IMG/VR virus record: IMGVR_UViG_3300020477_001931
Location: 1 to 20,160 of that record
Strand: one strand, 5' to 3'
DNA length: 20,160 bases
Source of the DNA: a virus
Position 1 is the stretch's first letter. Every line of letters starts with the position of its first letter. Under the pieces are notes generated by a model. That model was not told the origin of the DNA. It did no database searches and was given only the letters and a program-made list of their open reading frames with translations. Made by a program: the position numbers and the translations under genes. Positions 13,800-20,160 of the stretch are shown here, piece by piece.

Positions 13800-14232
13800 A
13801 CATCACCTTGAAACGGCCAAAGGCCACCTCGGGATTTGTCATGTCGCACAAGCGGGACCACCCCATCTCTCGTGCCGCCGTCTCCACCTCGTCAGGCAGG
13901 CTGGCCATGGCCTCACGCACCCCCTTGATGCCGTAAGACCTGACCGCCGACCTGACCATCTCGAAAGCCGCTGCGGCCGGCAGGGTCGGGCCACTCGGCC
14001 ACCACTCTTCCCGGTCGTCAGCCCACCGCTCTTGGTTGAACCATGTGGCTGGGTAGGGGGTGTACTCTCGCTCCTGCCCCTCACGAGCACGGGCGTACTC
14101 GCGGACGGCCTCCAGCAGCTCCTCGTAAGGCACGGCTTTGAGTGCCTTGAGGATTGCCTTCATGGCCGCACCACGCCCCACCTTGCGGGGATACGCTTCA
14201 TAAAGCGTACGGCACTGATCAGGCAGGCTCAA
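13762..14232 (-). CDS. Phage replication-type protein (YPRK-PATW family)
   Basis: The 156-residue product contains YEAYPRKVGRGAAMKAI near the N-terminus and YTPYPATWFNQERWADD at about 58-74. The pair YPRKxGKxxA and HPATWLNxxRWxDD is well known from phage replication and replisome-organiser proteins, usually in their C-terminal domain. Here that domain stands alone at the N-terminus, followed by a helical extension. I choose TTG 14232: GAGGTG lies five bases upstream, and TTGA overlaps the stop of the SSB-like gene. The exact biochemical role is not established. Confidence 0.72.
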   Translation of the reverse strand: MSLPDQCRTLYEAYPRKVGRGAAMKAILKALKAVPYEELLEAVREYARAREGQEREYTPYPATWFNQERWADDREEWWPSGPTLPAAAAFEMVRSAVRSYGIKGVREAMASLPDEVETAAREMGWSRLCDMTNPEVAFGRFKVMYEQTARRPDLRN

Positions 14233-14747
14233 AATGGCACCTCATCATCCGGCACCTCTTGCGGTGCTGCGGCCTTCTTGGCCTTGGCTTTCGGCTTGGA
14301 CTTGTTCCCCATCAAGCGGTCCAGCTTGATTGCAATCTCGGGGTCAGGCTCGGGGCCACTGCCGACAGGCTTGGAGCTTCTTGGGAAACTGAAGTTGTCA
14401 TAGACCTTGGTGCCAACCTGCTCACGGGTGCAGACCAACGTGACTTCCTGGTTGCTGAAGTCGTGGAACCCGTCGGTCGCCGGGTCCAGGTCCACAAACC
14501 GCTCGCCGTCCCAGCCGAGATCCATGAGCTGGTTTCCGGTGATCTCGACAGCCTTGGCCGTGAGCCACAGACGCACAGTTCTCGGCCAGTCCTCGCACGG
14601 GGTGAGTGGCCCGTCTGGGTCTGTCGGGTTGAGCCGCCCCAACGGCACGACCGTCAGCCCGAAGTATTCAGTCTTCTTGTCATTGTCCAGTTTGAAAAAC
14701 CCCTGACCGCTGACACGGCAGCGGTAGGTTCCTTGTTCGTATGCCAT
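14229..14747 (-). CDS. Single-stranded-DNA-binding-like protein
   Basis: The 172-residue protein has a beta-rich N-terminal region (EQGTYRCRVSGQGFFKLD, TEYFGLTVVPLG, EVTLVCTREQVGTKVYDNF), compatible with an OB-like fold. A flexible Lys/Ala/Pro linker follows, and the tail is the acidic DDEVPF. That tail closely resembles the DDDIPF end by which SSB proteins recruit partners. The gene lies directly after the Sak4-like ATPase, which in other phages works with SSB. ATG 14747 overlaps the previous stop (TGATG) after AAAGGTGAAAACTG. An SSB role is inferred from tail and context. Confidence 0.72.
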   Translation of the reverse strand: MAYEQGTYRCRVSGQGFFKLDNDKKTEYFGLTVVPLGRLNPTDPDGPLTPCEDWPRTVRLWLTAKAVEITGNQLMDLGWDGERFVDLDPATDGFHDFSNQEVTLVCTREQVGTKVYDNFSFPRSSKPVGSGPEPDPEIAIKLDRLMGNKSKPKAKAKKAAAPQEVPDDEVPF

Positions 14748-15556
14748 CAGTTTTCACCTTTCATTGCGTCCAAAAGATTTGTCCACGCCTCCGCGCCGCT
14801 GTCGCCCATGTCGAGTTCGTCGGGCATTTGGTAGCGGTTCTTGCAGTCCCAGGCCGGGCTGTAGGTGGTTCGCAATATGCGAGTCTTCCCGCCCTTGCCC
14901 TTGGGCCGGTTGCCCGACTCGTCCACTGAGACGAAGTAGTCGGCCATCATCACAGCGTCGGCCGAGCGGTGGAGGAGGTCCCACGTCTTGGCATGCAATG
15001 CCGGAACAAACCGGTCGTAGTCCTCGCCAAGAGGATTCTTGTAGGGACGCACCTGCGTGTGCTCGAGCATCACGACCGACATGCGTTTCTCGTCGCGGAT
15101 CCTGTCGACCGCCCTGAGGAACTGGCGGAAGTCGGCCAGGCTAGCTTCTATCCCTCGCGCATAAGCCAGGAATCCACGCTCCCACTCGCCGTTGTAATCA
15201 CGGGCACACACATGCTCGTGCATCATTCGCTCGGCACAGCTCACCGTGTCAATTGCCAGACACTTGTAGTTGTGGTCCCCCGTGGCCAGCTCCTCGAGCA
15301 TGGCGAGCAGCTCGTTCCAGTTGGCCGGGCACGGGAACACTGCCGCATCCTCCGGCACAGCCCCGGTCGCCTTGAGGGCACCAATGCTCTGCTCTTGTGT
15401 GAACTGGATGCAGACCACGCCGGGAATGTTGAGTGCCAGGCTGGTCTTACCCACGCCCGGCTTACCCATGATCACCAGCAGGGCCGGCCGTTTGGCCACC
15501 TTCTTGGTTATCTGCGACAGCCAGTTCTTGCTTGCCGCTTTTGTTGCTGTTGCCAT
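14747..15556 (-). CDS. Sak4-like RecA-fold ATPase, single-strand annealing recombinase
   Basis: The 269-residue product has Walker A GKPGVGKTS at 31-39 and a Walker B strand KCLAIDTVS at about 98-106. A VVMLEHTQVRPYKNP segment is typical of phage AAA_24/Sak4-type proteins. These RecA-like ATPases promote annealing-type recombination with SSB, matching the SSB-like, nuclease and resolvase genes around it. I prefer ATG 15556, preceded by GAGGAGAG. The open frame to 15670 is upstream shadow. The first 95 bases overlap the end of the permuted nuclease gene in another frame, which is long even for this compact genome. Confidence 0.86.
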   Translation of the reverse strand: MATATKAASKNWLSQITKKVAKRPALLVIMGKPGVGKTSLALNIPGVVCIQFTQEQSIGALKATGAVPEDAAVFPCPANWNELLAMLEELATGDHNYKCLAIDTVSCAERMMHEHVCARDYNGEWERGFLAYARGIEASLADFRQFLRAVDRIRDEKRMSVVMLEHTQVRPYKNPLGEDYDRFVPALHAKTWDLLHRSADAVMMADYFVSVDESGNRPKGKGGKTRILRTTYSPAWDCKNRYQMPDELDMGDSGAEAWTNLLDAMKGEN

Positions 15557-16589
15557 TCTTCTCTCCTCGACTTGCAGCGGCCCACCAAGCATCCATCGCG
15601 TGGTGCCACAGCGTCCCGAAATGGAGTGCGTCCATGCGCTCCTCGTCCACTCGTTCAATTCCAAGTTCATACTGGTAGTAGTGCTTTGCCTCGCACTGAA
15701 GAAAGCACTTCATGCGACTGTTGGTCACCACGTCGCGGCCGTCAGGCACCTCACCGTCCAGCTCGACATGCACGTCCTCTTTGATTTGCCAGCGGTGAGA
15801 GTCAGGCCGGTCGTGCCCCGAGCAGATGCCAAGGAACTGGCACGGCCGGCCGTAATGCATGCACGCGCCAGGATTGCGTAGCTTGTGGTCACTCTTCTTT
15901 GACCGCTGCACACGCTGGCCCACCTCCCAGAGGTCGCCGGCAAACTGGATCAGCTCGCTGGTGATCCGCTCGACCGAGCGGCGTGCGAAATACTTCTCGG
16001 GGTGAGTTTTGATCTCAAAAAACAGGCGTGCCTCGAATAGCTCGGGGTTCTCACGCTGGGCTTCCATGGCCCAGGTCACGCTGTCGGCTGACACGTCAGA
16101 TCCGTACCAGTTGCACGTTGCCACGAGTGCCTTGCAGTCGGCCACGCTGATCCGACGTGGAGACAGCCGGGGCTTCTTGGCCACGTCCCAGACAACCCGG
16201 TCCACGAGCACCCCGTTCTGGCCGAGCAGTAGCTCGTACATCTTGGGCTGGCTGTCCACCGCGAGCTGACGCCAGTAGTTGCTGTTGGGGTCTTCTATAT
16301 TGTCCGACGTTGTCTTGTGATCAAAGAAGACCACGCCGTCCTGGCGGGCCACCTTGTCGAGTTTGCCGGCCAGGCTCAGCTTGCGACTGCGGCGGCCGGT
16401 CTCGGGGTTGATCAGATCCGCCGTAAAAGTCTGCTCGGTCGAGATCAGTTCAATCTGCTCATGTGCCTTGATCCACTGCCGGTGGTACGCACGCAACATG
16501 GCACGACCCATGCAAGCCATCTTCCAGTCGGTTTCATCATTCAGTTCAAATGTGAACAGGGCCGCCTTGAGAGCAGGGTGTGTTTTCAT
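15462..16589 (-). CDS. RecB/Cas4-like PD-(D/E)XK nuclease in permuted order
   Basis: The single 375-residue frame contains all elements of the RecB/Cas4-like phage nucleases, but in rotated order. Residues 1-256 carry LAGKLDKV (catalytic D78), FFDHKTTS (D90, K92), QPKMY (Q114, Y118), and three cluster Cys residues (C243, C250, C256). Residues 285-337 then give VTNSRMKCFLQCEAKHYY and HFGTLWHHAMDAWW. That segment normally opens such proteins and supplies the first Cys and the conserved His. ATG 16589 overlaps the previous stop (ATGA). The enzyme would resect DNA for the Sak4/SSB system. The tail after 340 is low complexity where it overlaps the next gene. Confidence 0.85.
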   Translation of the reverse strand: MKTHPALKAALFTFELNDETDWKMACMGRAMLRAYHRQWIKAHEQIELISTEQTFTADLINPETGRRSRKLSLAGKLDKVARQDGVVFFDHKTTSDNIEDPNSNYWRQLAVDSQPKMYELLLGQNGVLVDRVVWDVAKKPRLSPRRISVADCKALVATCNWYGSDVSADSVTWAMEAQRENPELFEARLFFEIKTHPEKYFARRSVERITSELIQFAGDLWEVGQRVQRSKKSDHKLRNPGACMHYGRPCQFLGICSGHDRPDSHRWQIKEDVHVELDGEVPDGRDVVTNSRMKCFLQCEAKHYYQYELGIERVDEERMDALHFGTLWHHAMDAWWAAASRGEKNGNSNKSGKQELAVADNQEGGQTAGPAGDHG

Positions 16590-17056
16590 ATTTGCACCAC
16601 CAGGTCGTCTGGGACCTCTTCAAACAGGGCATCACTTGGCTTGATGCAATAGCACTGCTGGTGGCCGTCGTCCCTCGAGCGGTCGGACACCTCGGCGGTC
16701 CACCACAGCGGGCGGGTGTTTCGCTTGACCCGAATGACGTGCGTCATCCTGTGGTTAAAGAGGACGTACTCCGAGGGCTTGGGCTTTGCTCGGTCGTAAG
16801 AGTGGCTGGCACAGATCAGCACCTTTTCAAACGGGAAGTCCTCGCGGCACGTCCAGTCGCGTCGGATGTGTTTGACCTCGAGTCTCTGCCAGCGTGAGCC
16901 GGGCGAGTCCTGCACAAACAGGTCCCCGTCGTCAGGTCCCTCGTCGGGAGTGGCCGGGATACGCACGTTGTTACCGTCAGCCCAGGCCCAGCTCGCCGCC
17001 ACCCAGACAGCCAGATGGCTGCGAGCCAGTCGCCGGTCAAATGTCTCGCGTGACAT
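16586..17056 (-). CDS. Putative PD-(D/E)XK-like protein
   Basis: The 156-residue protein has GDLFVQDSPGSRWQRLEVKHI (about 45-65), which resembles the D...ExK core of the PD-(D/E)XK nuclease fold. A basic region follows, then strand-like YVLFNHRMTHVIRVKR. An N-terminal helix (RRLARSHLAVWVAASWAWADG) precedes. The family is uncertain; it may be a nuclease or an inactive relative. GGAGCAG precedes ATG 17056, and it overlaps the end of csrA by 20 bases. Its stop overlaps the start of the permuted nuclease, placing it in the recombination module. Confidence 0.62.
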   Translation of the reverse strand: MSRETFDRRLARSHLAVWVAASWAWADGNNVRIPATPDEGPDDGDLFVQDSPGSRWQRLEVKHIRRDWTCREDFPFEKVLICASHSYDRAKPKPSEYVLFNHRMTHVIRVKRNTRPLWWTAEVSDRSRDDGHQQCYCIKPSDALFEEVPDDLVVQI

Positions 17057-18892: not shown

Positions 18893-18920
18893 AAAAGTGT
18901 GGTCACCTGACCACACTTTT
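18893..18920. repeat. Inverted arm-site pair overlapping the integrase leader
   Basis: AAAAGTGTGGTCA and TGACCACACTTTT are perfect 13-base arms separated by CC. Each half is the arm motif found three times left of the core. The right half ends four bases before the integrase ribosome site (GGAG), so bound integrase could also reduce its own expression. Confidence 0.8.
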
Positions 18921-18936
18921 GAAAGGAGAGTCTGCT

Positions 18937-20160
18937 ATGCGTATTCCAGAACTCAAGAAACACACCTCCGGCCGAGCATTCGTCCGCGTCCAAAAAAACG
19001 GAACGCGGAAGGATTACTATTTCGGGGTGCACGGCACTCCCGAGGCCGAGACCAAATACAAGCAGTGGCTCGCTCGCCACATGGCTGGCATTCCTCACCC
19101 CGAGGATGAGACCTGCGGCAAGAAGGTCGCCCAGGTCGTCTCATTCTACCTCGACTGGATTCACGACGAGGGGCTGGTCTCCGAGGGGGAGCACTACCAG
19201 ATCCGGCACACCCTTGACGTTGTGTGCGAGCACTACGGCTCGCTGCCGGTCGAGAAGTTTTCAGCCGAGGAACTGAGCGACCTGCGAAAAGTTTTCCAGT
19301 CGCGGTACACCCACAGAACCGCCACCCAGAAACTCGGCCGCATCAAGAAGATGTTCCGAAAGTGCCTGGAGAAAAAGAAGAGCACTGGCGTGACTGGCGA
19401 GCAGGTCAACGAGCTGCTCCTGGTCGAGGGCGTCCACAAGGACAAGCCCGGCGTCAGGAACAGTCGCGAGGTTCCGGCTGTGGCCTGGACCGAGGCGAGC
19501 AAGCTGATGCCCTTCCTGTCACCAGTGGTCTCGGCATTGTGCAAGGTGCAATTCCTTTGCGGCCTACGGCCAACCGAGGCTTGCGTCATGACGCTCGACC
19601 AGATGGACACCAGCGGTGACATCTGGACCTACCAGCCCGACCAGCAGAAGACCGGCCACCGTGGCTGGAAGCCAGCGTCGGCTGTGCCGCCGGTAGCCCA
19701 GAAGATTCTTGAACCGTTCCTCGACCGAGCACCCAGTGAGTTCCTGTTCAAGCCGGCAGAGGCTGTTGCGTGGAAGATGGCTCGCGACTCGTACTATCGC
19801 ACCACCAAGGTGTACCCGAGCGAGGTCAAGCGGGTGCAAGCGGCGAGGAAGAAACGCAAGGCCCGTGGCGTGAAGCGGGCGGAGCACTACACCGCCAGCA
19901 CCTACGGTGGTGCCTTGAAGCACGGCTTCCGAGCCGCCGAGGAGGCTGGCCTGACGCTGGAACGCTGGTCACCCAACCAACTGCGTCACGGTATAGCCAC
20001 GCTCGTCGCCCACCAGCCGGGGCTGGGCCAAGAAGCGGCCCAGGCGTACCTCGGGCACGCTCACCTCTCGACGACTCAGGTCTACGTCGAGAAACAAAAG
20101 AGCAAGGTCATCAGCGTGGCCACGGAGCTGGAGCCACTGCTGGCCGAGCTGGTCACATAA
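18937..20160 (+). CDS. int: Tyrosine recombinase, phage integrase
   Basis: The 407-residue product integrates and excises the phage at attP/attB. An N-terminal arm-binding-type region (RAFVRVQKNGTRKDYYFG) and a SAM-like core-binding domain (about 60-150) precede the catalytic domain. Catalytic residues are R211 in FLCGLRPTEA, a Lys in QKTGHRGW (about 238), R350 and H351 in PNQLRHGIAT, H374 in LGHAHLSTT, and Y383 in VYVEK. The usual first His of HxxR is Asn, as I recall from planctomycete integrases. ATG 18937 follows GGAGAG. The gene ends on the last base of the window and lies directly beside the arm repeats it probably binds. Confidence 0.93.
   Translation: MRIPELKKHTSGRAFVRVQKNGTRKDYYFGVHGTPEAETKYKQWLARHMAGIPHPEDETCGKKVAQVVSFYLDWIHDEGLVSEGEHYQIRHTLDVVCEHYGSLPVEKFSAEELSDLRKVFQSRYTHRTATQKLGRIKKMFRKCLEKKKSTGVTGEQVNELLLVEGVHKDKPGVRNSREVPAVAWTEASKLMPFLSPVVSALCKVQFLCGLRPTEACVMTLDQMDTSGDIWTYQPDQQKTGHRGWKPASAVPPVAQKILEPFLDRAPSEFLFKPAEAVAWKMARDSYYRTTKVYPSEVKRVQAARKKRKARGVKRAEHYTASTYGGALKHGFRAAEEAGLTLERWSPNQLRHGIATLVAHQPGLGQEAAQAYLGHAHLSTTQVYVEKQKSKVISVATELEPLLAELVT

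Follow-up and report, generated by a model that had tools for sequence, protein, structure and literature searches.

The window, a 20,160-nucleotide stretch of DNA from IMG/VR virus record IMGVR_UViG_3300020477_001931, carries on its minus strand the gene for what is very probably a tailed-phage exonuclease of the PD-(D/E)XK (RecB/phage Cas4-like) type, with a complete active site and a circularly permuted chain. The open reading frame starts at ATG 16589, stops at 15462 and encodes 375 amino acids (PF12705 / PHROG 1218). Residues 1-284 (15738-16589, minus strand) correspond to what lies beyond motif I in ordinary enzymes, and hold two helices, GKLD (75-78; D78), DHKT (90-93; D90 and K92), Q114xxxY118, the Cys triad C243/C250/C256 and a VH.EL tail. 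The motif-I segment, N-terminal in ordinary enzymes, lies here at the C-terminus beyond the C-C-C motif (residues 286-339; 15573-15734, minus strand; delimited by hhalign and by PHROG 1218 positions 9-56). It contains TNSR (289-292; TNSxxxxFxxC299), C299 and FGTLWH (324-329), the last forming a helix with H329. The VH.EL element that ends the ordinary relatives serves as linker in the permuted protein, and the chain starts ~4 residues past the motif-I helix of these relatives. An earlier note on this DNA had proposed that the motif-I segment is moved to the C-terminus of one open frame, and that the protein begins where this segment would normally end. The motif read-out and the swapped profile blocks described below agree with the former, and the start position with the latter. 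Residues 340-375 and the stop codon (15462-15572, minus strand) form a poorly conserved tail of low pLDDT, encoded where the frame runs into the beginning of the Sak4 gene downstream.

The rotated order was apparent in profile comparisons. The exonuclease matched PF12705 with 61.6 bits (gathering cut-off, 22 bits) and PHROG 1218 (exonuclease) with an E value of 4e-26, in both cases in two stretches. Residues 1-285 alone matched PHROG 1218 positions 88-330 (E 8e-15), and the C-terminal 55 residues alone matched positions 9-56 (E 4e-10). Upon back-rotation, the sequence gave a single colinear match to PHROG 1218 (positions 9-330, 97.7 bits) and a single match to PF12705 (63.4 bits). That two swapped profile blocks merge upon rotation shows that the order had been read correctly in the earlier note. 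Alignments of permuted and ordinary proteins compared by hhalign behaved likewise: the permuted core aligned with positions 60-325 of the 354 ordinary positions (score 498.5) and the permuted C-terminus with positions 5-56 (score 120.6, E 4e-16), while the rotated permuted profile gave one alignment of 316 columns (score 612.0). Close relatives of the two orders can be aligned end to end only after rotation. When rotations were scanned against eight more distant phage exonucleases of ordinary order, the native order scored 206 bits, and a cut of the profile between the fourth Cys and TNS gave ~446 bits. The standard order of the PF12705 family is motif I, II, III, QxxxY and Cys triad; in the exonuclease motif I comes last, making it a variant of this family rather than a standard member. 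The Pfam Cas4 model was absent among the matches of the protein with E values up to 1, which comprised only PF12705, DUF7822 and DUF3799. A sequence search of solved structures returned no match for it.

Two gene pieces joined in the wrong order during assembly or binning could give rise to such a frame, and the source is a 20-kb linear metagenomic virus record. However, scans found the same order, core first and motif-I segment last, in 66 IMG/VR loci, and a later scan added five further contigs among the best 80 of 106 loci. In all, about 70 other viral contigs share it at 33-98% identity (the five of the later scan being counted among the best 80 of 106 loci). By tblastn, the permuted order was also detected, at 46-48% identity, in the complete genomes of two cultured Tunturiibacter phages, Tunturi_1 and Tunturi_2. 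A first scan of genome contigs gave 0 matches and a second one a Planctomycetaceae MAG contig; with a genome of the same phylum (G103, L188), the order is thus present in two bacterial assemblies. It is common to all permuted relatives whose sequence was read, and the linker region is conserved. Given this recurrence in independent contigs, phage isolates and bacterial assemblies, an assembly error, which the earlier note had named as a possible objection, did not materialise, and we regard an artefact as having a negligible chance of being correct.

Relatives of either order, which it had been proposed to look for, were both found, in the same operon position. The ordinary ones emerged from the scan with divergent permuted members, of which the best 80 of 106 loci were kept. 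In these relatives the motif-I segment (29-62 bits) precedes the core (189-230 bits); after removal of near-copies, 26 non-redundant ORFs of close ordinary relatives remained among the best 80 of 106 loci. Neither a duplication intermediate with the motif-I segment at both ends nor a separate motif-I ORF was detected when the ORFs of the fetched loci were inspected. A Streptomyces plasmid match (H11) was considered as a split permuted gene and rejected once translation revealed that its frame contains stops and that the match is due to chance. Several loci showed peculiarities of their own. In L099 (2869-3889) and L182, the core and C-terminal part lie in two overlapping frames with the break inside the core, reflecting either a sequencing error or a real frameshift. 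L131 (2372-3754; identical to L095) has a permuted ORF of 461 amino acids with an insertion inside the core after profile position ~152. One genome (G110; contigs C164, C75, C20 and C68), from the phylum of the MAG behind L036, contains four copies of the nuclease family, which suggests several prophages; one of these copies (L190) has the ordinary order.

To analyze the predicted fold, we used AF2 with 49 input sequences for the permuted protein (the Tunturi_1 and Tunturi_2 rows being left out) and 21 for the ordinary relative L166. The permuted model had a mean pLDDT of 91.6 and a pTM of 0.86, with pLDDT values of at least 93 over the moved segment and ~50 for residues 341-375; L166 was predicted with similar figures (pLDDT 92.1, pTM 0.84). 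The order of secondary structure elements in the L166 model is E-H-H-E-H followed by H-H-E-E-E-H-H-E..., and that of the permuted model is H-H-E-E-E-H-H-E... followed by H-H-E-H, i.e. the L166 order rotated. Residues 4-259 of the permuted model aligned with AdnA 840-1039 (Z 8.9, 3.2 Å, 177 residues) and residues 2-258 with ACE1 81-271 (Z 7.9, 3.0 Å, 173 residues). The ordinary L166 model aligned over residues 1-319 with AdnA 789-1039 (Z 15.7, 3.8 Å, 222 residues) and over residues 1-321 with ACE1 7-274 (Z 15.2, 3.3 Å, 226 residues). The part of the templates unmatched by the permuted model is the part covered by the ordinary N-terminal segment. Thus, the permuted protein is predicted to have a RecB-like nuclease fold over residues 2-259, and the moved segment is predicted, from pLDDT, pTM and secondary-structure order, to dock in its usual place. 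A fold left incomplete by the C-terminal segment, the outcome that would have spoken against the earlier note, was not what the model suggested; the prediction is confident and complete, moved segment included. In a viral structure library, A0A6J5NSY1 and A0A6J5MFE0 (both 'PD-(D/E)XK nuclease superfamily') resembled the permuted model more closely than they did the ordinary one (TM by target length, 0.79 and 0.71 versus 0.51 and 0.49), and for this reason they may share the permuted order.

A C-terminal segment of this kind might alternatively complete the nuclease of a second chain, in a domain-swapped dimer or oligomer. Circular permutants and swapped dimers are often interconvertible in principle, and the Cas4 protein SSO0001 is a decamer (PMC4176176). 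In the permuted exonuclease, however, the monomer is predicted confidently across the moved segment, and the linker past Cys256 consists of the ordinary C-terminal tail and a few residues, which gives a short intramolecular path. We therefore consider a swapped assembly distinctly unlikely and favor the permuted monomer. Circular permutation draws its support from the swapped profile pieces, the relatives of either order, the independent records and the confidently predicted fold.

We next compared the functional residues of 57 permuted sequences with those of ordinary relatives, 26 close and 8 distant. The Gly and His of motif I, the Asp of GxxD, and the Lys, Gln and Tyr were invariant across all three groups. 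The acidic residue of motif III was Asp in 52 and Glu in 5 of the 57 permuted sequences, compared with Glu in 26 of 26 close ordinary ones; a divergent permuted protein, L188, has the ordinary-like Glu. All four cluster cysteines were kept in 57/57 permuted and 26/26 close ordinary sequences, and some distant ordinary relatives have lost cysteines of the cluster. In every permuted sequence (57/57), one of the four is contributed by the motif-I segment and three follow QxxxY. This conservation bears on a further alternative, that the frame is a decayed or neo-functionalised fusion of a nuclease core with the leftover N-terminal piece of a neighboring copy, devoid of nuclease function. Tandem duplication and trimming would, by reasoning, leave such fragments. 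But the His, Asp, Lys, Gln, Tyr and four Cys contributed by both pieces are invariant in the 57 sequences, which is the opposite of decay, and a fusion without function is in our judgment very improbable. In the functional permuted enzyme, His329, Asp78, Asp90 and Lys92 would bind metal and cut DNA, and C243, C250, C256 and C299 would hold a single Fe-S cluster.

The exonuclease gene belongs to a compact gene cluster. Directly downstream lies a gene for a Sak4-like ssDNA annealing protein (14747-15556, minus strand; profile match to AAA_24 / PHROG 124), whose start codon (ATG 15556) is located inside the exonuclease ORF, overlapping its 3' end by 95 bases. The next gene of the module (14229-14747, minus strand) encodes a putative single-strand DNA binding protein (SSB). 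It had no family match of its own and is assigned by position, the gene in the same position in Tunturi_1 and Tunturi_2 being annotated as SSB; its homologues follow Sak4 in most permuted loci. A Sak4 homologue was present directly downstream in 49 of 49 permuted loci with at least 900 bases of downstream sequence, and in all 26 ordinary loci. Replication and RusA-like genes occur around these exonuclease-Sak4 loci, usually with the SSB. The neighbors of the exonuclease gene that were searched are phage genes. An annealing-protein gene thus adjoins the exonuclease, the arrangement that characterizes a recombination module. Sak4 of phage HK620 anneals single strands, aided by its SSB (PMC5928155), and the most plausible role of the permuted nuclease is accordingly that of the partner that resects the ends. 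Resection within a phage recombination module made up of exonuclease, Sak4 and SSB is thus its most likely task: the enzyme would resect DNA ends, and the adjoining Sak4 and SSB would then anneal the strands in phage replication and recombination. A role in CRISPR has been reported for Cas4-like phage proteins of the PF12705 type (PMC5704561), and the exonuclease might accordingly serve in CRISPR interference instead of recombination, in the manner of the Campylobacter phage Cas4-like protein, which takes part in spacer acquisition. We hold such a role to be most unlikely and favor recombination, given that Sak4 is invariably linked to the gene, in most cases together with SSB, replication and RusA-like genes in the surroundings.

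Other genes of the window merit mention. Directly upstream, a 156-residue protein (16586-17056, minus strand) overlaps the exonuclease start by ATGA and had no match in Pfam or PHROG; its D..GDLF(x15)LEVKH pattern resembles a second PD-(D/E)XK-type site. Two proteases are encoded in one phage region (10136-11086 and 11678-12556, both minus strand), a papain-like peptidase recognized by eye (GDCVSQG ... PHQM ... NSWG; no Pfam match) lying near a trypsin-like peptidase (PF13365, E 1.7e-10). The same 20 kb contain a serine recombinase (PF00239; 7464-8237, plus strand) and a tyrosine integrase (PHROG 1; 18919-20160, plus strand).

Among known systems, the closest in order are the exonucleases of Tunturi_1 and Tunturi_2 (XJP11549.1 and XOB77130.1), which are permuted, 43-48% identical and followed by Sak4 and SSB. 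They differ in being without the long C-terminal tail, the chain stopping shortly past the motif-I helix, and in having a small ORF between exonuclease and Sak4, unlike the IMG/VR record. The main text of the Tunturi phage paper (PMC11924767) contains none of the terms exonuclease, nuclease, Sak4 and recombination. The ordinary exonucleases that precede Sak4 in uncultured phages (L157, L159-L187) are ~26-33% identical to the permuted ones and share with them all catalytic and Cys residues, the gene slot and the C-terminal VH.EL tail, but their motif-I segment is N-terminal and their motif III has Glu (26/26) where the permuted proteins mostly have Asp. PHROG 1218 / PF12705 exonucleases such as the 'Cas4 family exonuclease' of Gordonia phage SheckWes, Muddy gp43 and that of Yersinia phage P744 share the motifs and, as in the permuted loci, have a RecA-like/Sak4 gene nearby. 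Their order is ordinary, and the whole profile fits the permuted protein only after rotation. The nuclease domains of AdnA, AddB, RecB, Dna2, Exo5 and the Cas4-family ACE1 share the RecB-type fold with the permuted model over its residues 1-260, as predicted, but carry the motif-I part at the N-terminus.

How the permutation arose was addressed by phylogeny. In a quick tree of 91 re-registered rows, the permuted sequences grouped as a single clade (SH-aLRT 98), with the ordinary close relatives next to it. In a careful outgroup-rooted tree, which included L188 and four more ordinary genomes, the distant outgroup attached inside the permuted group, and the ordinary close relatives fell within that group, next to L188. 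Forcing the permuted sequences together in this tree cost only 4.1 log units, and a single permuted clade was not rejected (p-AU 0.23). The simplest reading is one ordinary-to-permuted event, because all other RecB-type nucleases considered have the ordinary order, although its direction and number are not firmly rooted. The ancestor would have been an ordinary-order gene that either was duplicated in tandem and then trimmed or had its ends fused. A short linker would thereby have come to connect the old C-terminus to the old N-terminus, with the new termini falling in the loop that follows the motif-I (FGxxxH) helix. It is rather improbable, yet worth keeping in mind, that the permuted form is older than the ordinary close relatives and that the chain was cut and rejoined twice, the sister group having regained the ordinary order. 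If true, this would represent a natural reversal of circular permutation within one operon slot.

The earlier note knew of no described natural case of this kind, and our search of the open-access literature likewise found no description of a permuted RecB/Cas4-like nuclease. This is provisional, because circular permutation is reportedly mentioned elsewhere in the PD-(D/E)XK superfamily literature and the search covered open-access sources only. The rotated order bears on the presumed Fe-S cluster. AddB, Dna2 and Cas4 carry a four-Cys 'iron staple' (PMC7430649, PMC3466216), the Cys pattern covering the whole domain, as in ordinary L166, where the cluster cysteines run from C19 to C316. In contrast, this span is absent in the permuted form: C243, C250, C256 and C299 lie within 57 residues (codons at 15693-15863, minus strand). 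The proposal that the presumed Fe-S cysteines could still meet in the rotated chain fits the strict conservation of all four. In AddAB, domain integrity is considered to depend critically on the cluster (PMC7430649); by contrast, loss of the cluster from the Cas4 protein Pcal_0546 was without effect on cutting (PMC4176176). Retention of the four Cys is informative because the ends that the staple holds together in ordinary enzymes are already connected by the permuted chain, so that a pure staple would be redundant. Their strict retention in 57/57 sequences argues that the cluster may have a role beyond stapling ends, or may still be required by the local fold.

In practical terms, profile annotation as 'exonuclease' or 'PD-(D/E)XK nuclease' silently spans different chain topologies. 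With permuted and ordinary pairs available from one operon slot, two cultured phages among them, the staple idea can be tested directly, and this phage family thus provides a natural experiment on the purpose of the iron cluster.
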